64,000 nt of DNA from Aurantiochytrium sp. KH105 (taxonomy: Eukaryota; Sar; Bigyra; Thraustochytrida; Thraustochytriidae): assembly GCA_003116975.1 (NCBI GenBank), contig BGKB01000083.1, forward strand, positions 284,504-348,503, read 5' to 3'. Every line of letters starts with the position of its first letter. Position 1 is the first letter of the stretch. The position numbers and the translations under genes were made by a program. Below are positions 33,319-46,508 of the stretch, piece after piece. Under the pieces are notes generated by a model. The model was not told the origin of the DNA, did not search any database, and saw only the letters and a program-made list of their open reading frames with translations.

Positions 33319-35250
33319 TCATCCTTTGTGGAGCAAAGGCTTGGATAAAGTCTTCCCATTGCTATTTTCAGGCACCTTCATGATGGGCACCTTTTGCTGC
33401 AGCCTCGCGCTCACACGCCTCCGGGAATATGCACGAGAAAACCAGGACGCCCAAAGCGACTGTGGACCCGACCCAAGGCGCGCGAGAATGGCACGCTGCT
33501 GGACCCCTGCGCCAATTCCCAGTTGCTCGAGCATTTCCTCATCGATATTCAAGCACGCGCACTTAGAAACCAGACCGGCGTTAAAGATAATCACGATTGC
33601 CGAGCGCGAGACCTTGTCCTTTTGCAGCAAGACTTTCGACACGCGTGAACCAGAGATAAATGTTAGAAAGTCCACTGCGGCTCCAAATTGGGACTGGCGC
33701 GCCACGTCCAAAGCAGTACAACCTCGCTGGTCCGCGGCCTGCACATCTGCGCCCGCAGACCAACAAGCCTGCACGCACTGCAAACGTTGAACCATTATTT
33801 CCGGAGACGACAAGCTCTTTCGTTCGCAAGCAAGCCGAAGCGCCGCATCAAGCTTAAGCTTCTCCTTCTTCTCCTTCTTCTCCTTCTTCTCTGCGCAACC
33901 ATGCGAAAGCAAGGCATTCACGATCTCATATCCACCGTGGCTACAAGCATGCATGAGGGCGGTAAAGCCTGTCTGCGACAAAATCTCGGGATCTGCACCT
34001 CGCTCGAGCAGAAGGTTAACAGTCGCGCTGAATCTAAACAGGCATGCGAACATGAGCGCTGTTGAGCCATCCTGAGTTCGAAGGTTTATTTCTGCCCCAT
34101 GCTTGAGCAAAGCGTCAACGAGGTCGCAGTTTGCGCTTGCACTGGCAAGCATCAAGGCGGTCACTCCTTCGTGGTCCTGTACGTTCGGGTCAGCGCCACG
34201 CCTTAGCAAGAGCTTTGCGATGCTGGGGTTTCCGCAGGAGCATGCCAGCATGAGCGCTGTGGCCCCGCTATTTGCACGGACATGGAGGTCAGCACCTGCC
34301 GCAATAAGCGCCTCGACAAGATTGATTGACCTTGCTCGGCAGCTCGACAGCATGAGCGGGGTTCTGCCAGTATCGTCCATTGCGCACGGACGCGCGCCGT
34401 GCGCTAGCAACAAATGCGCGATTTCATTTTGCTTCGCCTGGCAGGCTTGCACGAGTGCCATGTCCAGCTGCTGCGCAGAGAGACCGAGCTTGAGGATACG
34501 CATTGCAATGTCTGTGTGCCCAGAACGAATCACATGTTCCATCGACAACGACGTGCATGCGAGATTTCCGTTGTGTTCAATGACGAATCGAGCCACGTTC
34601 AGAAGATTGAATTTAAGCGCGAGCTGGAAAGCATCGAGTCCATCAGCCCGCTCGGCCGTGTAGTCTGCGCCGTATTTGAGCATCAAGTCACAGAGTTGTG
34701 GATTTCGATAGCGAATAGCGAGCAAGAGTGCAGTGCTTCCGTCGCGAGACCGCTTTTCCATATCCGCGCCTCGTGCAATGAGCGCAGCTGCAGCTGCTGG
34801 CTGATTGTACTGAATTGCAAGCAATAGTGCCGTGTCGCCATTGTTGGCGCGCGATTCGATGCGAATATCGTGCTCGATCATTGTCAGAGCAGCATCTTCG
34901 TGCCCGTTGCGAAGAGCAAACATCAATGGAGTGTATCCCGCCTCGTTTTCGAGGTCAGCAATGCCGCCAAGCGCCATCATACAGTCGATTGCCTGCGGTA
35001 GACCTCGCCACGAACATGCCATGTGTAAGGGGGTGTCCCCGCGTTTGTTGCGCACATTGATCTGCGCCCCGGCCCCAACAAGTTCATTTGCAGTCGCGAT
35101 GTTGCCTCTCATACACGCGAGGTGCAGCGCGGTATCGCCAGCTGCATTTCTGGCGCCAACCCTCGCGCCTGAAATGAGAGCTTTCTCGACCTGTTCCGCC
35201 GTGCCCGCCCTCAAGAGCTCATCCTCGACGCTCTGCGTCATTTCCCACAT
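33319..35250 (-). CDS. Ankyrin-repeat protein with a SAM-like C-terminal segment
   Basis: 643 aa from ATG 35250; the frame is open back to 35295 without an ATG, and a second Met is three codons in. About fourteen ankyrin repeats of 33 aa fill residues 15-480, several near consensus (for example GDTALHLACMRGN, GATALMLACSCGN and GVTALMLASAS). A short Lys/Glu insert (EKKEKKEKKEK) follows and then one or two more repeats. Near 555-585 a helical segment with NIDEEMLEQLGIGAGVQQRAIL recalls the end of a SAM domain. The C-terminus is basic. Ankyrin arrays bind other proteins and have no catalytic role; the partner is unknown. No membrane segment was seen. The gene is divergent from the VOC-like gene. 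Confidence 0.88.
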   Translation of the reverse strand: MWEMTQSVEDELLRAGTAEQVEKALISGARVGARNAAGDTALHLACMRGNIATANELVGAGAQINVRNKRGDTPLHMACSWRGLPQAIDCMMALGGIADLENEAGYTPLMFALRNGHEDAALTMIEHDIRIESRANNGDTALLLAIQYNQPAAAAALIARGADMEKRSRDGSTALLLAIRYRNPQLCDLMLKYGADYTAERADGLDAFQLALKFNLLNVARFVIEHNGNLACTSLSMEHVIRSGHTDIAMRILKLGLSAQQLDMALVQACQAKQNEIAHLLLAHGARPCAMDDTGRTPLMLSSCRARSINLVEALIAAGADLHVRANSGATALMLACSCGNPSIAKLLLRRGADPNVQDHEGVTALMLASASANCDLVDALLKHGAEINLRTQDGSTALMFACLFRFSATVNLLLERGADPEILSQTGFTALMHACSHGGYEIVNALLSHGCAEKKEKKEKKEKLKLDAALRLACERKSLSSPEIMVQRLQCVQACWSAGADVQAADQRGCTALDVARQSQFGAAVDFLTFISGSRVSKVLLQKDKVSRSAIVIIFNAGLVSKCACLNIDEEMLEQLGIGAGVQQRAILARLGSGPQSLWASWFSRAYSRRRVSARLQQKVPIMKVPENSNGKTLSKPLLHKG

Positions 35251-36081
35251 CGTTCGTGCTGCTCGCAATCTCCGTGCCGCGAGGTCTCCCGCCAAGGCCA
35301 GCCAAGCTTAGCTACTCTCGTAATCTTCTCCCCAATTTCGCTTTGCTCGCTCGCCGACCACCTGGCCTCGGCCAGCCCATCTTCGTCCGTCAAGCGCGAG
35401 GCTCCTTCACTTTCTGTGACGAGAAATGCCTTGTGGCTGCCCGGTTCTCCGAGTCCGGATCCGGGGACCCCTTCTCAACCCTCGCGTGGTGTACCTTCTC
35501 GCGTCCTGGACGGAGAACTCTGGACGGAGAACTCGAGGTGTGCTCTCTCCTGCTCGCTCGATCACAGCCGCCTCCAGCTGCGCTTGGAGAACGAGCACGC
35601 CATGAACAACTTAGGCCACTCCAAGAAGAGCTGTACTTTGAGACCCCGGCCTAGCAGAAGAAGTAGAAGAAGACGAAGACGAAGACGAAGACGAGGAAGA
35701 GAACATGAGATGGCAATGGCGACAATGATGTTGACGTTGGAGGCCCTTCGAGCTGGACAAGGAGATGCAGGAGGGCGCCAAGGTCGGGACGACGGAGACG
35801 GAGAGGGGAGGAGCGACTCGGTCCGCCCGACCGCGGCGGAGTCCATGGCGATCCAGAAGTTGCAGCTGCACACGCTCGAGACGCTCCTCCTTCTTGCGCA
35901 AAAGTAGTGGCAGTATAGTTCTCACTGGCAAGATGTCGCCTCGAGCGGCCTGTCCGACGACGACGACAATGACGACGACGAACAGAACCCAAAGCCTGAC
36001 TTGGCCGGCGAGCAGCAGCTGCAGGCTGCAGAGAGGAACAGGCAAGCAGACAGGAAAAGGCAGAGCTCGTTTCTCGCGGCG
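35251..36081. other. Divergent spacer with a candidate upstream exon
   Basis: Between the ankyrin and VOC-like starts. It contains an open frame (ATG 35710 to TAG 35905-35907) in the same phase as the VOC-like gene, described separately. Outside it, a GAAGAC-rich stretch (35655-35700) and nothing else recognised. Confidence 0.5.
35710..35907 (+). other. Candidate upstream exon of the VOC-like gene
   Basis: A 65-codon frame, ATG 35710 to TAG 35905-35907, ending in a helical LQLHTLETLLLLAQK. It is in the same phase as the VOC-like gene 175 bases downstream, and the DNA between is also open (apart from this one stop) with an acidic peptide SGLSDDDDNDDDE. An intron from GT 35904 to CAG 36041 (138 bases, like the 137-base MRE11 intron) would join the two in frame. 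The proposed acceptor lacks a pyrimidine tract, so this is only a hypothesis. Confidence 0.25.
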
Positions 36082-36897
36082 ATGGCGAATCTGGTGGCAC
36101 TCGTGAGCGGAGACGCTCCCGCGGCATGGCAGCGTGCGGGCTTCGCGCTAAGCCGAGCGCCCGTGCCGAGCTTTCTCGCCAAGTACGGGTGCTCGGCCTG
36201 GCTCAATTTGCCGACGCAGAACAGGCGGCTTGCGGTCGGTCTTGGCGCGGAGAGCACGGAACACATTAAATCTGGCATCTCCGCGTGGGTATGGGCAGGG
36301 CTCAAGGACAAGAGCCCTCAGGCTGTAGGCGACTTTGCTTCCCTCGCCATCTCGGATGCCGAAGCCGAGGCAGCCTTCGAGAGCGATGTCAATGCTGGCT
36401 CGCGCGATGATGAACACCCGAACGGCATTGTCAACATCGATCAAGTCGTCTTGAGAACGCTCGACATGGACAGCTCGCTCCAGTCCTTCGAGGCGGCCGG
36501 CCTCAAGCTCTTGCGCAAGCGCGACGACTTGTATCCCGGCACGACGCAGGCGTTCATCAGGCCCTGCGACGATGTTATTCTCGAGATTGTATCGGTAACT
36601 CCTGAATTGCGCAAGAAGCAGGCCAAGATGACCAATCAAATGGTTGCCTTTAACGAAATCGAGAATAGCATTTGGGGCCTTACATACGTTGTCAAAGACA
36701 TTGAGGCTGCCGCAGAGATGTTCAGCCCTAACATTAGCAAGGTCAACAACGCAAAACAGCCTGGACGCAAAATCGCGACCTTGCGCAGCGAGCAGCTCGG
36801 CCTGCGCGCGGCCATTGCGATCATGTCTGCTCACGTCAAGTTGCCTCCTGGACAGGACGCTGCTGTGCCCTCGTCGCCGCCTTCGGCCAAGCTCTAA
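36082..36897 (+). CDS. VOC/glyoxalase-like domain protein
   Basis: 271 aa from ATG 36082; the frame is open upstream to 35908 without an ATG. The N-terminal third is unrecognised. From about 110 a glyoxalase-like region begins (IVNIDQVVLRTLDMDSSLQSFE), with a first beta-alpha-beta-beta-beta unit ending near DVILEIVSV and a second half (IWGLTYVVKDIEAAAEMF) that resembles the paired second unit of VOC proteins. No clear His or Glu metal ligands are kept at the usual positions, so it may be non-catalytic or use another site. It differs from the VOC-EF-hand protein at 20017-21303. The end is 164 bases from the end of the channel gene. An upstream exon is possible. Confidence 0.65.
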   Translation: MANLVALVSGDAPAAWQRAGFALSRAPVPSFLAKYGCSAWLNLPTQNRRLAVGLGAESTEHIKSGISAWVWAGLKDKSPQAVGDFASLAISDAEAEAAFESDVNAGSRDDEHPNGIVNIDQVVLRTLDMDSSLQSFEAAGLKLLRKRDDLYPGTTQAFIRPCDDVILEIVSVTPELRKKQAKMTNQMVAFNEIENSIWGLTYVVKDIEAAAEMFSPNISKVNNAKQPGRKIATLRSEQLGLRAAIAIMSAHVKLPPGQDAAVPSSPPSAKL

Positions 36898-37061: not shown

Positions 37062-40000
37062 TCAGATGCAAAAGAGCAGGTCTTCGATATCGCCTGTCGA
37101 GGTACTTCCACCGCTACTACTCTGGCTTTCAGACGTCAGCGAAGACACGGATTGGCCTTCCCAACGAAGCGCCGAAGGCTTGCGGCTCTCCTGCTTTGAG
37201 ACACTTTTGCGCCGCACCTTTTTCTTGTGAGCTGTCACGAGCTCCACCGCGGCAAATTCCAAATGCTCGCGCTCTTCACGCGCAAGCTTGAGAAAGGGAA
37301 ATCGGTCCGATAGACGATCCGCAAAGTGAATACGCAATAGCTCCTTGAATGCCGGCGAGAAAAGCTCACGGAAACGCACATCTTCCACAATAATCCTAAC
37401 AAAATTGCGCACATGAGGAAAACCGCGATCCAGCAAAGAAACCTGATGCACACATTGCACTCCCATTTCGATGAAAAACAGGTGCGAAAACACTAGAATA
37501 TCCGCGAGACCCATTTCTTCTCCACAAAGATACTCGCCCAAGCTACTGGCCTCAAGCTCGGCCAAAAGGTCATCCAAAACCTTCAAGATTGACTCCATCT
37601 GAGCGAGATGAAGCATGTTTTGACCTTCGCGATGCGCCAGGCTACCAAACTCTTGCAGACGAAGCTTGGCCACTGCGTCTCTCTCATTCTGCCTCACCAA
37701 GGCTGTCACCTGAAGAGGACTGTGTTCCACGTCTTGCGCATCACCATGAAACTTGGCCGTAAATAAGATTAAAAACGGTTCTGCAAACTCAGGCATGGAA
37801 CTCTTAAAGGACTCTCGACGCGAAAATTGCTCCACCCAGGCATTCACGCGAGGGAAACCCTCGGCCGTCAGCTCAAACCCGTGAAACCAGGCACAACACA
37901 CTTTTACAATGCGCCAAATCGAAGTGACCAGGGCCACGTCAGCCACTGCGCACGTTGGACCCAACAGAAAGGGCCCGCCCGAGTCCGCAAGCTGAGTCTC
38001 CATCGCGCCCAAGAGCTCGCACATTTCGCGTCGTTTAGCCGCACGCGTAGGGTCGTTCGTCTTCGCCTTGAGGTATGCTTCGCAAATGGCATCGCACGCG
38101 TTAAAGAGTGCCATCTCCGCGCAGCCGTCCACGCGAGAGACCCCCTCGAGCCGCAAGGGCTTGTCCAATGTCGCGTACCTCTGCGTAAAAAGCCGCTGCA
38201 TTGTATTGAGCACAATTTGAGACTCGTTCGTCCATACACCATTCCAATAAATACTAGGGCACTTTCCAGTGCTAGAAGCTTCCGTGAACCACGCCGGCTT
38301 GTCGAGCAAGTCGATCTTAACAGTATGATGCGGAATGCCCGCTTCCATCGCGACCATCTCCACCACGCGTGAAAAGGGACACACTTTGGTCAAAAACTCA
38401 TCGCGATGCACACATCCAATTGCCAAGTACACCTTGTTCATCTCAAACGAGGGACCTGCCATGCCTCCCTTCACGCTGACGGATCCGTCTGCCGCCACGC
38501 AAATCGTATCTTTGCCATAACTCGACATGAGCGTTGTCACCATATCCTCTTCTGCGGCCTTGCGAGACGCTGTGCTGCGGCACCGCAGCGGCTGCCACGC
38601 AGGGAACTTGCGCTCGTAGTGAGCTGCGGCATTCAAGACATAAAATGGCGTCGCGCCTTCAGTCTCGGAGGTTTCACGCATCAACGCTGTCCGCGCCATC
38701 GCAGTCACATACCGCTGCAGTCGCGATAGACCATGTCGCTCCGCGCAAAAACCAGCCATGGGCCGCAAGACACGCTCGAGGCAATAATGTAAGTGCGGAG
38801 CAAGAATGAGGTCATCCAGGCCCACTTCCCTTGCACCAGACAGAAAAGGATACCATGTCAGCGTGACAGTCTGCGCTTTTGTGTCCTCGCCGGTATTGTC
38901 GGTCGCTTCATTTGCCGCAAGAATCGTTTCGAGCGGTTGTAAAACGCTGAGCAAAGTCGCTAGACATTTAGCATCAACCTCGTCGCGCTGTGGCTCGACG
39001 CCAGAGCCGTCTGGTCGCATCATATAAGCATCCGTTGCCGCCTCAAGCTCCTCGCAAATGCGAAAAACATCAGCATAGCTGGTGCGCCGAGGCAGTCGGT
39101 CAAAGTCTGCGCGGTACAGCTCGTGCAAGACGTCGAGAATGGCTTTATCCCCCACGGTGACCCTTTCGTCGGGGCCAGGACCCAAAAGCATAGGCACTTG
39201 ATCGGGACCAACCCAAGTTGGCGGGTCGGCAGCATCAACCAGCACCGTGTTGTGCGGAATGCCCAAAGCGCGCATGACCATTTCCACCTTTTGCGAAGAG
39301 GGGCAATTGCGCACGAGACGATCCCCGCGGTGGCCCACGCCAATGCAAAGAAAAGCTCTGGACCCGTTTGCAGGTGGGCGCTCCTTTACTTTACGCTGCT
39401 GGCGCAAACGTTTCAGTCGGCTCTGATCTGACCCGAGCACCTCATCCATGTTACCAGCCCCGGCTGCCTTGATGTTGAGTACAATCTTGCCTCGAGCTTC
39501 TTCGGGGTTCATGGCCAGCATTTCTCGCATTTTCTCAGGACTCGAGAATATCACAAGGTGAACATGGCGTTCAAGCACGTCGAAAAAGGACCAGGTCGCG
39601 ACCGGGAGATCGTGCGTGCGATTTGCGCGCTTGGCCTGCGCCGGAAACTTGCGGTGCAAGTAGCGCATAATATCTCTCGAATTGTGCGTCCACTTCCCTT
39701 CATAGTAGATTGTGGGCGTGCGTCCGGTCGGCACAGCCTCCGTAAACCACGCGGGCTTGGCGTTCCAGTCAATGTCAATAACTTGATGAGGTATACCGGC
39801 AACAACGAGGAACATGTATACCATTCGCGAGTATGGGCACATGCGCGCAAGATAGTTTTTGATGCGGATGCAACCATAGCAAAGGTACACTGTGCCTACC
39901 AATGGTTCATCTGGCAGCGTTGTCACGACTGCAGCGTGCGTCGCATCGTTCCGTAAACTCGTGTCTCGCCCTTGGAACCGGCCAACTCTTGCACTGCGGC

Positions 40001-41789
40001 CTTGGTTCCGCAAGCCAGACGCGAGCCGCCGCCTCGGGCTCTTGCTCGCCCGGCGCGCCCGAACCTGATGCAAGTCTTCGACTTCGTCATCCTCGCTGTC
40101 TTCGAGAGCATGCAGCGCTTCCATAAGTCTCTCGTGCGTGACGCCTACGGCCGCTTCAACGCCATCAAACTTGTCGAAATTGGCCCGAATACCCTTGCCT
40201 CCAGGGCGTCGCTCCATCATGTTGCCAAAGAGAATGCCGCCAAGCTCGAGATCGATGCCTCTGTACTGAGTTGTGCACACCAGCAAGTCGTTGTAAACAG
40301 AGTCATGCCCCGAAAAGCTCACGCTGAGAACGATGTTTGCCATTTCCTCCGGGTCAAGCAGAAACCGCCGGAGAGGCGATCGTTCGTCGATCTTGTGTAT
40401 GATCGTTGCGACTGCAGTGACAATGGGCGGGAACGAGGTCTCGAGCGTGTCATACCCGACAAAGTTCTCGCCTTCCGTCGTTTCGTGAAATCGCAAAAGA
40501 TTAACGGATACGCGGGTTTCGTAGACGAGATTGACGCGTCGATTCCCCACGCGAATGAGCAAGGTCGGCTCGCCGTCTCGAGTTGTCACGAGTGCTTTTT
40601 TGCTAAAGACAATGTCTGGCTTGGGAATCTGAAACTTGGAAACAACCACGGAGAGGACAATCACATTGAGCATGATGCCGGCAAATTGCTGCACGCATGA
40701 GAGCACGTACAGGCCGTACGATCCAGGTAGACACGGGCCGTATCCGAGAGTCAAGATGTTGCTCGTCGCAAAAACAAAGGCGCTGCCAAACGTTCCTGGA
40801 ATGAAAATATCCTCGCCCGACTCGCACTCGATCTCATCCGAGAGAATCCAAGACACGAGCGACCACAAGAGACACATGAGCAAATAGCTCAATGCTGAGA
40901 GGAAAAAGACGAACGCCCAGCTCCAATCAAGGAGCACATAATACCAATTCTTCGCCTCGTACCATTTGGAGGCGCCGGTGCCATGCAATGCTGATCTCTT
41001 CTTTCGCTTGCCGGACTCAATGTGGTCCGGGAGGTATTTGCGTTGCTTGTAAGAGTGTTTGTGTTTTTTGCGCAGTCGCTCGACGCGGAAGCGCCTCCAA
41101 TCTGCGAGGGACATCCCGATTGCATGCGTATGATTGCGTCGTGGTTGGTCTCGTTGAATTCCTTCGAGGGTGCCGAAATTGACCTCGCTTGCGGATCGTG
41201 GGCAATTTTCTTCAGATTCTTCACGGTGAATTTCGTCCTTTTTCTTTCTCCGTCTCCTCATGCTTGTGTTCCGCAAAGGGAGTTCCCCGCCGTCTTCGAC
41301 AAGAGCGTTGTCTTCTTTGTTCTCCTCTTCGCCTTTGTTGTCGTCATCACCTTCTTCTTCTTCATCTTCTTCTTCTCGTTCTTCTGTTTCTTCGTTCCCA
41401 TCGTCGTCGTTGCCGTTGTTGTCGTTGTTGCTTGTCCTCTTGTGTTGGTAATGACCATGATGATGACTATGATGATGATGATGAGAAGGAGAAGGGGGAT
41501 TGCTGTCTTCAAGATTTACGTCTTCTGGAGACAAGATGCACGTTTGCATAGCCACCATGGCGTCGCGGCTGTCGTGGCGTGTTGACCTCCGCTCTCCGCG
41601 CTCCACGTCCTCTTCGCCCGGGTCATGGACCAGAGTGATTTCGCTGCCGAGCAAGCGGTCTTGACCACTACCGGCACGGCCGGTACGGGCGAGGGGTGCA
41701 CCATGCTCGGCGTCACTGCCGCCATCGTAGACGCCCTTCTGGCTGCGCGGCGCCTCCTCGTCGCGCGCGCTCGAGCTGCTTGCTCCCAT
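37062..41789 (-). CDS. Inward-rectifier K+ channel fused to tandem GST/CLIC-like modules
   Basis: 1575 aa from ATG 41789. The start MGASSS fits N-myristoylation. A disordered stretch (1-270) holds a His-rich run (about 103-118) and acidic tracts. The Kir channel follows: slide helix and first membrane helix (about 278-316), pore with T347-L-G-Y-G351, second helix (about 358-384), and the Kir cytoplasmic beta domain (393-545) with IVFSKKALVTTRDGEPTLLIRVGN and ATIIHKIDERSPL, matching Kir family blocks in order. Then come thioredoxin-fold plus helical units: module 1 at about 632-760 (CPYS 651-654), module 2 at 812-1010 (CPSS 829-832), module 3 at 1118-1325 (CPFS 1137-1140), and a fourth helical half at 1400-1480. 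CP-x-S is the redox or glutathione site of CLIC and dehydroascorbate-reductase-like proteins. It is all one frame with no stop. Predicted role: a K+ channel gated by redox state or glutathione. Confidence 0.88.
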   Translation of the reverse strand: MGASSSSARDEEAPRSQKGVYDGGSDAEHGAPLARTGRAGSGQDRLLGSEITLVHDPGEEDVERGERRSTRHDSRDAMVAMQTCILSPEDVNLEDSNPPSPSHHHHHSHHHGHYQHKRTSNNDNNGNDDDGNEETEEREEEDEEEEGDDDNKGEEENKEDNALVEDGGELPLRNTSMRRRRKKKDEIHREESEENCPRSASEVNFGTLEGIQRDQPRRNHTHAIGMSLADWRRFRVERLRKKHKHSYKQRKYLPDHIESGKRKKRSALHGTGASKWYEAKNWYYVLLDWSWAFVFFLSALSYLLMCLLWSLVSWILSDEIECESGEDIFIPGTFGSAFVFATSNILTLGYGPCLPGSYGLYVLSCVQQFAGIMLNVIVLSVVVSKFQIPKPDIVFSKKALVTTRDGEPTLLIRVGNRRVNLVYETRVSVNLLRFHETTEGENFVGYDTLETSFPPIVTAVATIIHKIDERSPLRRFLLDPEEMANIVLSVSFSGHDSVYNDLLVCTTQYRGIDLELGGILFGNMMERRPGGKGIRANFDKFDGVEAAVGVTHERLMEALHALEDSEDDEVEDLHQVRARRASKSPRRRLASGLRNQGRSARVGRFQGRDTSLRNDATHAAVVTTLPDEPLVGTVYLCYGCIRIKNYLARMCPYSRMVYMFLVVAGIPHQVIDIDWNAKPAWFTEAVPTGRTPTIYYEGKWTHNSRDIMRYLHRKFPAQAKRANRTHDLPVATWSFFDVLERHVHLVIFSSPEKMREMLAMNPEEARGKIVLNIKAAGAGNMDEVLGSDQSRLKRLRQQRKVKERPPANGSRAFLCIGVGHRGDRLVRNCPSSQKVEMVMRALGIPHNTVLVDAADPPTWVGPDQVPMLLGPGPDERVTVGDKAILDVLHELYRADFDRLPRRTSYADVFRICEELEAATDAYMMRPDGSGVEPQRDEVDAKCLATLLSVLQPLETILAANEATDNTGEDTKAQTVTLTWYPFLSGAREVGLDDLILAPHLHYCLERVLRPMAGFCAERHGLSRLQRYVTAMARTALMRETSETEGATPFYVLNAAAHYERKFPAWQPLRCRSTASRKAAEEDMVTTLMSSYGKDTICVAADGSVSVKGGMAGPSFEMNKVYLAIGCVHRDEFLTKVCPFSRVVEMVAMEAGIPHHTVKIDLLDKPAWFTEASSTGKCPSIYWNGVWTNESQIVLNTMQRLFTQRYATLDKPLRLEGVSRVDGCAEMALFNACDAICEAYLKAKTNDPTRAAKRREMCELLGAMETQLADSGGPFLLGPTCAVADVALVTSIWRIVKVCCAWFHGFELTAEGFPRVNAWVEQFSRRESFKSSMPEFAEPFLILFTAKFHGDAQDVEHSPLQVTALVRQNERDAVAKLRLQEFGSLAHREGQNMLHLAQMESILKVLDDLLAELEASSLGEYLCGEEMGLADILVFSHLFFIEMGVQCVHQVSLLDRGFPHVRNFVRIIVEDVRFRELFSPAFKELLRIHFADRLSDRFPFLKLAREEREHLEFAAVELVTAHKKKVRRKSVSKQESRKPSALRWEGQSVSSLTSESQSSSGGSTSTGDIEDLLFCI

Positions 41790-42071: not shown

Positions 42072-45000
42072 TCAGATACTTTCTTCGAGCTGCTTGACGA
42101 GCCGTAGCATAATGTTCTCGTTGTCGTATTTCCAGTAGGGAAGCTCGATATTTCGTCGAATGCAGATTGTGGCAAAGGCCTCCGGCGTGATGATGTCGTC
42201 GTCGTCGTCGTCCTCATGATCGTTGACTTCGATCCAAAGATCCATCACCTGCGTCTCGTCGAGAGGCGGCTGCGGCTGTGCGGTGCGGAGGAGTTCTTGA
42301 AACTCCTCAAAGGACAAAACCCCATCGCCGTTGACATCAAACGTACGAAAGAGCTGGATCATCATTGTGCGATCAAGCTCGACCTTACTGAGAAAGACTT
42401 GTGCTACCTTGCCAAGAAAATCGTCACACTTGACGACCTTGATATCGCTGGTGGTAGACTTGTCCACTTCAGACTCGGGTACGCTGTTTGTTTCAACCCA
42501 CTTGATAAGGCGCTGTCGGAAAGCGCTTGGCATTGGCCACGACCGCGTCGTACTAGAGTCCTCGTCAGGATCCTCGTCTGTCCCGCTTCGATTTACGTCT
42601 CCGTCCACAAGCTTAAAGATTGATCGCGCGGCGCGCAACGCGTGAGTGCTCTGTACCACAGTCTGCTCCGGACCATGCTCTAGAGTCTTGGCAATACTTT
42701 CGATGCGAGGGAAGATGACCGAAATCACGGCCATGATCACGTCGCACAACGTCTGTGAGTAGTGCTCGGGGTCCACAACGCCGACGAGCATACCAAAGAG
42801 GCGAACTCGGGGCGAGTTCTCGCAATCTTCGCGAATGGCCTGCACGACGCCATACAAATACTCTTCAGCAAGCTTTTTCAGTCCGTACTTTTGCGTGAAA
42901 AAGTGCAAAATCGTCTTGGCCAAGGAGTGAGGCTTGCGGCCTGCCTCGCGTCGCATCTTATCGCTCTGCACCTTTTTCTGGTAGACTTCGCCAATAATGA
43001 CGTCTTGAAGTTGCGAGGGCTCGATCTTGCGCGCACGCCTGTGCTTGGGTGGCCTGTGCAAATACTTTTCCCAAGGGAGAGCCTCGTTGAGAAGAGGAGC
43101 AATGTACTTTGCATGGATTCGGCGCAGGGTAACCATCATGGCCAGCTCGCCACCTTCGCGCAAGAGAGACTTGTTACGAATGTCAACCGTGTTAAAGACG
43201 GTGTCGAGCTTTTTCATCTTTTTCGGCTTGCGTTTATCCTTTTTGTTCGTCTGTGTGCCCCCGCTACTTGGTCGTGAAACCAGTTCGCTGTCATCGTATT
43301 CGTCTTCCTTGTCAGTGCAATTTTCATCGTCAACTTTTTCGTCCTTGCTGTCGCCGTCGCCATCTTTGTCCTTCGATGTGTGCTGACCTTGCGAGTCGTT
43401 GTCCAGAGTGGCGCTTCCTGAGTCCTCCAATCCATCAAGTGCAGCATCCGGAGAATCAAGATCAAGATCAGTGCCGAGCGTGAGCACCGTCGATGGACTC
43501 AGCGGAACCTCGTCGGATTCTAACTTGTCTTTGATGGCCTGTATAATGATATTCCGGGCCTCCTCGCCTGGATGATCATACATTGGGATGGTGATGTCGG
43601 TCTGCACGAGCTTGCAATTCTCATCGTCGAAACTACTCTCAAGGTCGCCGTGGTGTCTGTCGAGCGCCGAAGACGAGTTTGCTCCGTGCACAGACTCTTC
43701 GTTGTCAATACCGTCTGGACCGAGTTCCTTCATGGATTCAAAGAGGCGCTTGCTCGTCACCTTCTTGATGAGCGTGGGCGTGATCATGTCGAGTTCTTCG
43801 GAGTCGAGCATTTGGACAAATTCGAGCACGAGATCGACACGATCTCGGCTTGAATTGAGCTGCCGGAGCACCTCGCGGATGAAATTGGTTGCGCGGCCGT
43901 CGGCAGCGCTCTCCATGAGTGAAGCTACCAAGCTACGCTGGCCATCCTCATCGAGCGCCATGATCATGTGTTTGAGTCGAGCGTGATCCACGGTGGTGAG
44001 CCAGTTTGCCATGAACTGTGATTGCTGCAGATCGTCCAGAAGCTTGACGTTGTTCTCGATGTTATCCTGAATGCAAACGGAAGCGCGCCGTTTTTCGGAA
44101 CCGCCCACAACAACAACTTGACCCAAATCATTCCGTTCAGGCTCTGGAACTCCGTTTCCTAGCTGCTCTTCCGCTCCAGCATCGCTGTCAGCAAGTTCGC
44201 CCGCGAGAGCGGCCTGCGCCTCCGTGCGGGATCTGCCCGAGCCCCCAGATGCCGAAGACTGCGTCGAGGGCTGTCTTTCTGGTACATCTGCCTCTTGACC
44301 AGTCTCGGACCACTCGCGAGCCAATCGTTGTCTTCGTGGACCCGTGATTTTTCGCATATGCTCAAGCAGGCGTTCGAGCGCCTCAATGACCCCTGAAGGT
44401 TGCAGTTGCGCGATTTCTCTTCGTAAAAGTGCAAAGTCCTCGTCATTTCCTGCTGCGTCATTGTAAGCTGCGAGAGCGTCAAGAATCTCGTTACAGTTGC
44501 TCAAGGCCGTCTGCAGCTCCTCAATCTGATTGTCGCGTTCCTGAATATTTTTGCGCAAAATGTTGTTCGTATGTTCGAGAGCTGCAACGAAATTGGGATC
44601 TGATTCGCGTTCGAATTTTGCGCGCTCATCGCCATAGCGCTCAAGAAGAAGGTACAGGATACGGTGCTCAGTACGCCATAGCCGCAACAGCTTTGAGCCG
44701 CGCTTGAGGCATGTTTCCGTCACTTGACGGGGCATCCCGTCCACCGTTGCGGCCATTTGAGCAAGGCTCGAAGTTCCAGGACGTGGGTTGCTCGAGAGAA
44801 CTGAGCCGCTGGCTTCAAGCAGAGACTCACCGTCTGCCAAGACGGAAGCCTCAAAATCCCCTCGAGAATCCATCATGTACCGTTGCAAGAACGCCAAGTC
44901 CTCACGCAAGAATCGTAGACAGGCATCGAACTCTGTCCCGCAAACCTCGATGCACTCTTTCCCGATGCGGACAGGATCGCTTGTATTTTCGGCCAAGTTA

Positions 45001-45692
45001 CGCATCCACGTCTCCGCCATGGATTCAGGCATTGATGTTCCGGTGGACATTGTAGAATGACTTTGCGATACCTCGGCGCTCCCTTGCGCAAGGCTCCCGA
45101 GAAGGCCCATTGTATCTTCTCGCATTTCGAGAAGTCCGCCATTGTCGCTCATTGACTCGGACAGGCCGTACGCCATTTGGCCGAACGAAGGAGAAGATCG
45201 CGAGGGTAGTGGATCGAGGACTGTCGGAGGCCGCCGTCGTCGCGGTCGTAGTTTCTTGCGGTAGGCCTTTTCCAGTCGGGAGTCAATGTATGAGACGCGC
45301 TCGAGTGCATCGTCGTCAATTGAGGTGGTGTTTACGCTGGAATCCGCAAGGAAGATGAGACCCGATGAAGATGTCTCGCCTTGATTCATGGGTAGACTTG
45401 CTAGTTTCTCCTCCCCGTCTTCAAGTTCTTCGTATTCTTGGCGCACCGAACGCCGCAAGAGCTCGGCGTTGCTTGCGGGCAGGTCCAGAGCACGCTGGTG
45501 TCCTCGCTTAACAGGACTCAGGCTTCTCGTGAGCCTTTGTCCGTGTCCATGCCTTCGTGATCTTGATGGACTCGGTGAAGACCTTGCAAGAATCGCTTGA
45601 TTTTCGTCTTCGTCTTCGTCGAACTCGCAGTCGAAAACACGGCATGCATCGTGCACCGCGGCTGCCGCGACGTCTTTATTTTCGTCGTCCAT
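42072..45692 (-). CDS. Large EF-hand protein with a conserved helical block
   Basis: 1206 aa from the first ATG at 45692; the frame is open to 45815 without an ATG. The N-terminal half is mostly charged and disordered, with coiled-coil segments (for example around 44480-44600). A Ser/Asp-rich linker follows. From about 43200 to 42600 a well-ordered helical block appears with features such as LREGGELAMMVTLRRIHAKYI, KKVQSDKMRREAGRKPHSL and FFTQKYGLKKLAEEYLYGV. This pattern recalls long helical ciliary or flagellar proteins, an impression only. The last part has one canonical EF-hand loop (DVNGDGVLSFEE, about 42305-42340) and a second degenerate acidic one (EVNDHEDDDDDD). Ca2+ binding by the first loop is likely. 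No membrane segment. It is divergent from the EDEM gene. Confidence 0.75.
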   Translation of the reverse strand: MDDENKDVAAAAVHDACRVFDCEFDEDEDENQAILARSSPSPSRSRRHGHGQRLTRSLSPVKRGHQRALDLPASNAELLRRSVRQEYEELEDGEEKLASLPMNQGETSSSGLIFLADSSVNTTSIDDDALERVSYIDSRLEKAYRKKLRPRRRRPPTVLDPLPSRSSPSFGQMAYGLSESMSDNGGLLEMREDTMGLLGSLAQGSAEVSQSHSTMSTGTSMPESMAETWMRNLAENTSDPVRIGKECIEVCGTEFDACLRFLREDLAFLQRYMMDSRGDFEASVLADGESLLEASGSVLSSNPRPGTSSLAQMAATVDGMPRQVTETCLKRGSKLLRLWRTEHRILYLLLERYGDERAKFERESDPNFVAALEHTNNILRKNIQERDNQIEELQTALSNCNEILDALAAYNDAAGNDEDFALLRREIAQLQPSGVIEALERLLEHMRKITGPRRQRLAREWSETGQEADVPERQPSTQSSASGGSGRSRTEAQAALAGELADSDAGAEEQLGNGVPEPERNDLGQVVVVGGSEKRRASVCIQDNIENNVKLLDDLQQSQFMANWLTTVDHARLKHMIMALDEDGQRSLVASLMESAADGRATNFIREVLRQLNSSRDRVDLVLEFVQMLDSEELDMITPTLIKKVTSKRLFESMKELGPDGIDNEESVHGANSSSALDRHHGDLESSFDDENCKLVQTDITIPMYDHPGEEARNIIIQAIKDKLESDEVPLSPSTVLTLGTDLDLDSPDAALDGLEDSGSATLDNDSQGQHTSKDKDGDGDSKDEKVDDENCTDKEDEYDDSELVSRPSSGGTQTNKKDKRKPKKMKKLDTVFNTVDIRNKSLLREGGELAMMVTLRRIHAKYIAPLLNEALPWEKYLHRPPKHRRARKIEPSQLQDVIIGEVYQKKVQSDKMRREAGRKPHSLAKTILHFFTQKYGLKKLAEEYLYGVVQAIREDCENSPRVRLFGMLVGVVDPEHYSQTLCDVIMAVISVIFPRIESIAKTLEHGPEQTVVQSTHALRAARSIFKLVDGDVNRSGTDEDPDEDSSTTRSWPMPSAFRQRLIKWVETNSVPESEVDKSTTSDIKVVKCDDFLGKVAQVFLSKVELDRTMMIQLFRTFDVNGDGVLSFEEFQELLRTAQPQPPLDETQVMDLWIEVNDHEDDDDDDIITPEAFATICIRRNIELPYWKYDNENIMLRLVKQLEESI

Positions 45693-46508
45693 GACGGCTT
45701 GCTGCACGATCTCTCTCCGTACGCCAAAGCTGACTGGCTTGGCAGCTCGCCTGGGTGGTGTCAAGCAAACGCATGGTATGCACGTGCACGTGCTGCGAGG
45801 CGCAACATTGAACAATCAAGATCGATCGGGGAAACTCGTTGCTGTAACGCATATATCGGGAAAATCCATTGACACACGTACACTCGCCTGCCTCTCTGCC
45901 AAAAGGCGCAAAAGTACTTGTCGACGACAAAAGTACGACTGAACGTGCACACCGCACCCACCATGAACAACGTTTGTTCTGGCGTTGAGATAGAGAAGAT
46001 ACACTAGAATTCTTGCCACGAACTCGGGCCGCCGGTCGCATCGACTTTCCTTCTTCTTCTTCTTCTTCTTCACCCGCGTTAGATAGAGACTACGATATAC
46101 ATTCCTTACTACCGCACATACATCACACTCGTAAAAGCTGAGCTTGATGCGAGATCGCCAATCGCCGACTGCGCTCTCTCTCCACCAGCGCAACAACGAC
46201 AACCAAGTCAGAACTCGAAAGAGCATCACGACGCAGTCATGACCCCGTTCGAGAAAAGGGACCTATCGAGAGACCGAAGGGACCTAAAAAAACACAAGTT
46301 TCTCAGCTCTCCAGCTCCTCTCTCTCGGCGGCCAAACCCGCGAGGCGCCCGCGCGGCGCTCGGGGCGCACACGCGTCGCTCGGGGCGGTACAGCAGGGCC
46401 TGGGCAGCGGCCGCAAAAGGAGCCCGCGGGGAAGGTGTCTCCGCCGTCGCCCGCCAGACTCTTCTCCGCGTGTAGACCTCGAAGGCGAGGCGCACGAAGA
46501 GCACGACG
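45693..46508. other. Divergent spacer with a CTT array
   Basis: Shared upstream region of the EF-hand and EDEM genes, 816 bases. A CTT trinucleotide array lies at 46049-46070. Nothing else was recognised. Confidence 0.55.

Follow-up and report, generated by a model that had tools for sequence, protein, structure and literature searches.

A predicted Kir-family K+ channel subunit joined in one frame to a GST-type cassette in Aurantiochytrium sp. KH105, with glutathione or redox gating as a tentative function

The window analyzed here, a stretch of 64,000 nucleotides from Aurantiochytrium sp. KH105 (contig BGKB01000083.1, termed C83 below), carries on its minus strand an open reading frame (ORF) in which a Kir-type K+ channel part is followed by a cassette of GST-type domains. 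This fusion ORF spans 1575 codons without an internal stop, and its ATG start codon lies in a Kozak-like context (gccaccATGG). A rough model based on the dinucleotides of the window puts the chance of 1575 open codons at ~1.5e-19, a value that is uncorrected for the choice of place. Neighbors on the same strand (33319-35295 and 42072-45815, both minus) encode an ankyrin-repeat protein and a large EF-hand protein, and a neighboring ORF at 36001-36897 (plus strand) gave no Pfam match at E<=0.05. The features of the fusion ORF are as follows, in the order of the protein.

37062..41789, minus strand: entire fusion ORF of 1575 aa and a stop codon, with an ATG start; same frame in the other allele (L005)
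41040..41789, minus strand: N-terminal segment, aa 1-250; acidic, His-rich, of low complexity; site of the three allelic indels, each of whole codons
40992..41120, minus strand: strongly basic region, aa 224-266, ahead of the slide helix/TM1 (sequence)
40839..40925, minus strand: TM1, aa 289-317 (hydropathy; KirBac3.1 alignment)
40737..40751, minus strand: K+ selectivity filter TLGYG, aa 347-351 (sequence, alignment)
40623..40712, minus strand: TM2, aa 360-389, with Asn375 at the rectification controller (hydropathy, alignment)
40155..40613, minus strand: Kir cytoplasmic domain (IRK_C), aa 393-545 (Pfam)
39879..40154, minus strand: linker from Kir to GST part, aa 546-637; open and free of indels, with an allelic dN/dS of 0.75
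39630..39878, minus strand: Trx-like N-domain 1 (CPYS, Cys651), aa 638-720 (stretch scan; PDB search)
39345..39629, minus strand: post-Trx1 stretch, aa 721-815; no detectable GST C-domain
39060..39344, minus strand: Trx-like N-domain 2 (CPSS, Cys829), aa 816-910; degenerate glutathione site; GST_N_2 just under cut-off
38670..39059, minus strand: GST C-domain 2, aa 911-1040; a weak match, with GST_C_2 under cut-off (E=0.007)
38145..38429, minus strand: Trx-like N-domain 3 (CPFS, Cys1137), aa 1121-1215; closest to plant DHAR
37785..38144, minus strand: GST C-domain 3, aa 1216-1335 (Pfam; PDB search)
37350..37784, minus strand: fourth GST C-domain region (C4), aa 1336-1480; GST_C E=2.8e-6, above cut-off; without a Trx of its own
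37065..37349, minus strand: C-terminal tail, aa 1481-1575; basic, then Ser-rich

The protein starts with MGASSSS in both alleles (window 41769-41789), a beginning that resembles an N-myristoylation signal, here in a protein equipped with membrane helices of its own. The basic stretch ahead of TM1 is a candidate for a possible lipid contact.

The assembly (76 Mb in 367 contigs) holds a second haplotype, and on contig C85 (L005) the same fusion frame is uninterrupted, with 1607 codons open. The haplotypes are 95.6% identical over a 10,052-column alignment that extends into the neighbor genes. Over 1574 aligned codons of the fusion ORF, we determined an allelic dS of 0.091 and a dN of 0.013 (i.e., a dN/dS of 0.15). 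More specifically, allelic dN/dS was 0.07 for the Kir part (286-545), 0.08 for the GST part (638-1480), 0.47 for the N-terminal 250 residues, and 0.75 for the Kir-to-GST linker (546-637), throughout which the frame is kept; the pore stretch (286-390) has zero amino-acid differences between alleles. The three allelic indels in the ORF (of 1, 7, and 1 codons) all fall in the N-terminal low-complexity stretch, whereas indels of 1 and 15 bases occur in the 5' flank (over 282 compared bases) and one 1-base indel in the 3' flank (over 163), apart from a 9-base overhang left there by trimming of the sequence. The allelic dN/dS values, together with whole-codon indels in the ORF as opposed to those in the flanks, indicate protein-level constraint on both the Kir and the GST half within a single frame. 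The linker between them evolves freely, in the manner of a disordered tether.

The earlier note on this DNA had read a Kir pore, a Kir cytoplasmic domain, and CPYS, CPSS, and CPFS modules in a single frame free of stops and frameshifts, and we see this arrangement in both alleles. Since neither allele contains any stop or frameshift, two separate proteins are unlikely; an in-frame intron may still lie within the linker, and two weak GTAGG donor-like sites are found there. That two adjacent genes or a misassembly have been read as one, so that the fusion is not a real protein, is hardly credible and was rejected: the relaxed linker and its donor-like sites speak for such an artefact, but both haplotypes are open end to end at 95.6% identity, all three ORF indels are of whole codons as against a 1-base indel in each intergenic flank, and there is no stop at which a Kir-only protein could terminate.

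Assignment of the first half to the Kir family is based on two membrane helices flanking a T-x-G-Y/F-G filter and on the presence of a Kir cytoplasmic domain, both of which were found. Hydropathy analysis gave two clear helices (289-317 and 360-389), as well as two marginal stretches (1274-1292 and 1426-1444) that are barely above threshold and lie inside GST C-domains. In Pfam, IRK_C matched at 393-545 with E=6e-14 in the whole protein (PF17655, E=5.8e-15 for the Kir part alone) and Ion_trans_2 matched at 305-386 above cut-off, and the IRK membrane model remained below cut-off (E=0.011 for the whole protein, 0.001 for the Kir part alone). KirBac3.1 was the PDB match over 280-531 (E=1e-19). 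The window Kir shares with KirBac3.1, Kir5.1, and Kir2.2 the order TM1-pore-TM2, the T-x-G-Y-G filter, and IRK_C, and it aligns with E=1e-20 (27% identity) to KirBac3.1 and 4e-20 to KCNJ16 (Kir5.1); it differs from KirBac3.1 and the animal Kirs in having ~1000 extra C-terminal residues with GST domains. Among 75 columns conserved in >=90% of 46 KirBac relatives, 34 are kept by the window Kir.

The C-linker of the window Kir equals that of KirBac in length, being 3 residues shorter than those of Kir6.2 and three other Kirs of the same genome, and the positions of K187/K188, the PIP2-coordinating lysines of eukaryotic Kir, are missing from it. PMC3884141 describes these two C-linker lysines as PIP2-coordinating and offers, as a speculation, the linker difference and K187/K188 as the reason for the lack of KirBac activation by PIP2. 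Asn375 occupies the rectification controller, from which the acidic residue of strong rectifiers is absent; the weak rectifier Kir1.1 carries N171 at this position, and the effect of the residue is described as not all-or-none (PMC4145359). With this C-linker and Asn375, the channel is predicted to be weakly rectifying and to lack classical PIP2 activation. As candidates for the extracellular Cys pair of eukaryotic Kirs, Cys322 and Cys353 flank the pore on either side, but the post-filter loop has the length of that in KirBac.

In the second half, Pfam analysis of the whole protein placed GST_N_2, GST_N_3, CLIC-like_N, and GST_C_2 in three stretches apiece, and the CP-x-S motifs (CPYS at 651, CPSS at 829, and CPFS at 1137) retain their cysteine in all three modules in both alleles. 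When stretches were scanned alone, Trx1 matched GST_N_2 (E=2e-12) and CLIC-like_N, both above cut-off; Trx2 matched GST_N_2 just below cut-off (8e-5); Trx3 matched GST_N_2 above cut-off (4.5e-10) along with GST_C_2 (3e-8); and aa 1340-1500 matched GST_C (E=2.8e-6). Against a GST profile of nine sequences, two of which are module 3 from both alleles, hhalign probabilities were 98 for Trx1, 96.6 for module 2, 57.5 for the module 2 tail, and 93 for C4 (51 columns), with 1.2 for the stretch 1041-1128 and 0.1 for the C-tail. Likewise, the 720-815 tail of Trx1 scored 0.1 against this profile, equal to two control stretches (0.1 each). These stretch-by-stretch Pfam scans and the profile comparison point to the cassette order N1 - N2C2 - N3C3 - C4 (i.e., three Trx halves and three C-half regions rather than three pairs), in which a helical C-domain after the N-domain is present in module 3, weak in module 2, and not detected in module 1. 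Three or more GST/CLIC-like modules had been proposed for this frame; the three Trx halves and three C-half regions bear this out in part, but three complete GSTs were rejected, as the 95-residue stretch that follows Trx1 gave no match to a GST C-domain and C4 is unpaired.

The nearest solved structure to module 3 is plant DHAR2 (E=3e-13), with plant DHAR as the PDB match over 1136-1330, and those nearest to module 1 are pyrimidodiazepine synthase, DHAR2, and GST omega; module 2 matches DHAR weakly (0.03). For C4, and at odds with the cassette order above, the PDB search placed two non-GST proteins at the top (E=0.003 and 0.013), with GST-fold proteins from 0.4 up. Sequence identity is 45% between Trx1 and Trx3 (80 residues), 50% between Trx2 and Trx3 (44 residues), and 29% between Trx2 and Trx1 (83 residues). 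In a small tree, the three Trx modules formed a clade of their own (support 0.949), apart from the eight other GSTs included, which fits internal duplication; the Trx modules thus look like internal duplicates of the DHAR/omega/CLIC type. Tandem GST units occur in thiol-dependent reductase 1 (PDB 4ags; match E=4e-9 to module 3), a tandem GST of Leishmania that has several GST units per chain and is not known to have a channel part. Compared with plant DHAR, GST omega, and CLIC, which share the CPxS Trx-type N-domain and the helical C-domain, the window modules are arranged in tandem within a channel chain, lack the Lys8 equivalent, include one degenerate member, and leave one N-half and one C-half unpaired.

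The earlier note had also pointed to the use of CP-x-C/S sites for redox and glutathione binding in CLIC and dehydroascorbate-reductase-like proteins. In modules 1 and 3, the Cys, the Pro before strand 3, and an Asn-Ser or Glu-Ser pair are all kept, whereas Gly-Asp replaces this pair in module 2. By these residues, modules 1 and 3 appear to keep most of a glutathione pocket, and module 2 looks degenerate there. The Lys8 position was placed by the register of DHAR. A Lys8 equivalent before the active Cys is a DHAR/CLIC feature (PMC4726096), and it is absent from all three modules, which have Gly/Cys, Gly/Val, and Gly/Cys at -12/-11. Cys640 (module 1) and Cys1126 (module 3) sit near the Lys8 place by this register, and we speculate that they could pair with the active Cys.

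Among the Kir genes found in its own genome, the fusion was seen in one allelic pair. IRK_C gave at least 14 matches on eight contigs, which form four allelic pairs; no GST family was found in the other three Kir pairs (one allele each scanned), and GST domains were seen only in the C83/C85 pair. GST_N_2 gave 39 matches, of which only those on C83 and C85 lie in frames >1000 codons, and CLIC-like_N is restricted to C83/C85 and the pair C100/C107. Among loci covering 30 of the 39 matches, the closest other GST of the genome shares 27-32% identity with part of one module. Two further frames (L030 and L031 on C8/C118, 759 and 723 codons) contain two GST units in tandem without a channel.

Outside this genome, IRK_C was present in 77/386, 16/398, and 124/377 genomes of three prokaryote phylum samples. 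Only the third sample was rich in open frames >450 codons; in the first, 1/702 was of this length, a partial match. None of 12 long Kir frames taken from the third sample carries a C-terminal GST, all 12 ending <=57 residues past the Kir domain, and among 80 KirBac3.1 relatives kept (of 342) none has a long C-terminus (at most 292 residues between the start of the match and the stop codon). A bacterial precursor of the fusion thus found no support in these 80 relatives or 12 long frames. No relatives of the GST part were found in viral contigs and phages, and of 15 pattern matches to the window Kir in a collection of genome contigs, none was confirmed. In a FastTree analysis of 28 sequences, the window Kir grouped with animal Kir6.2 and three Kirs of its own genome (support 0.967) on a very long branch that gives this grouping little weight; with that reservation, a recent gain of the Kir from bacteria was not supported. 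The architecture had been thought undescribed, and our literature searches likewise found no Kir-GST fusion; the available text of two surveys of ion-channel diversity (PMC13183375 and PMC7576140) does not contain the word 'fused' and has no bearing on it.

We tentatively read the protein, with slightly less than even confidence, as a single-chain Kir-family K+ channel subunit with a covalent glutathione/thiol-redox sensor that would be gated by glutathione or redox state. Kir5.1 Cys158 and Kir6.1 Cys176 are inhibited through glutathionylation, from which glutaredoxin rescues Kir6.1 (PMC11631806), and monothiol CPFS sites of CLIC have glutaredoxin-like activity (PMC4291220). As some animal Kirs are thus inhibited by S-glutathionylation and CLIC modules are glutaredoxin-like, redox control is plausible, and glutathione or redox control would be the likeliest function of the cassette. 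The subunit would assemble as a tetramer whose pore sits above a skirt of twelve Trx modules; glutathione binding, or a change at Cys651 and Cys1137 through oxidation or glutathionylation, would alter the packing of this skirt on the Kir cytoplasmic domain, and the pore would open or close in response. The modules may also add glutathione to channel cysteines or remove it, as free glutaredoxin does on Kir6.1. Because the channel is without the eukaryotic PIP2 linker, the cassette may be its main cytosolic control, and a DHAR/CLIC-type cassette within the Kir chain would unite reader and target.

GST folds are frequently pure scaffolds, and those of eEF1B-gamma and the AIMP proteins are protein-protein docking domains. 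The cassette might be no sensor but a scaffold for docking or clustering, which places the channel or holds partners; we consider this somewhat unlikely. The degenerate module 2, the loss of Lys8 from all three modules, a C4 without its own Trx partner, and the weak likeness of C4 to eEF1E1 in the PDB search (E=0.55, not significant) argue for a scaffold, and non-GST proteins as the top PDB matches of C4, along with a fusion known from the one genome examined, also count against a sensor. Retention of the CPxS cysteine in 3/3 modules of both alleles, with the rest of the pocket mostly kept in modules 1 and 3, speaks against a scaffold. An improbable alternative is that the channel serves mainly as an anchor, the modules being working dehydroascorbate or disulfide reductases at the membrane with little effect on gating. 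In its favor, modules 1 and 3 have enzymes (pyrimidodiazepine synthase and DHAR) as their nearest solved structures. Against it, the pore, the filter, and the cytoplasmic domain, which an anchor would not need, all appear intact, and the alleles do not differ in amino acid anywhere in the pore stretch 286-390.

A bolder version of the sensor reading, which we think quite improbable as a whole, would make the protein a eukaryotic channel counterpart of Kef, that is, a Kir released from PIP2 control and gated by glutathione or glutathione adducts. Here Trx1 and C4, each unpaired, would close on each other as a split GST around two complete ones, with twelve modules per tetramer and a K+ flux that tracks electrophile or oxidant load. 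Bacterial Kef has a K+ pathway under the control of a glutathione-binding domain in the cytosol; glutathione closes this pathway and glutathione adducts open it (PMC10224563), and the proposed logic is alike. Kef itself, however, is a K+/H+ antiporter (CPA2 fold) with KTN/RCK, and neither family is among the 15 found at E<=10 in the window protein (Pfam). Closer to the channel side, Kir4.1/5.1 and Kir6.1 have their gating altered by S-glutathionylation, reversed by glutaredoxin for Kir6.1 (PMC11631806), but in those channels the enzyme is a soluble protein apart from the channel, whereas here the cassette lies in the chain. Redox and glutathione control of K+ channels has mostly been studied in this form, as separate soluble enzymes acting on channel cysteines. 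If the covalent-sensor reading is true, glutathione-type domains in a channel's own chain would make the coupling directly testable and constitute a genetically encoded link from glutathione state to membrane potential, and the fusion could reveal how a Kir runs without the PIP2 linker.

Other Kirs encountered in these searches have unusual architectures of their own. In the same genome, the Kirs L010/L011 (C49/C90) and L008/L009 (C24/C112) carry long low-complexity inserts that interrupt the cytoplasmic domain while keeping the frame and that contain a C2H2-like pattern, CPVCGxxF...HLLRHIRYQ (zf-C2H2 E=0.002 in L010, below cut-off), and the filter of L008/L009 reads TSGFG. Among the bacterial frames, all three that were scanned (L139, L140, and L146) place the Kir after a membrane domain of the LtrA family (low temperature requirement A; E=5e-74 to 6e-67) in one frame, and an LtrA-like N-terminal pattern was recognized by eye in 9 of the 12 long frames (L136, L139-L143, and L145-L147), being absent in L138 and L144. 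The genome also gave matches to a PfaA-type polyunsaturated fatty acid synthase (E=1e-278, below the curated cut-off), and the same search matched 11 of 14 control genomes.
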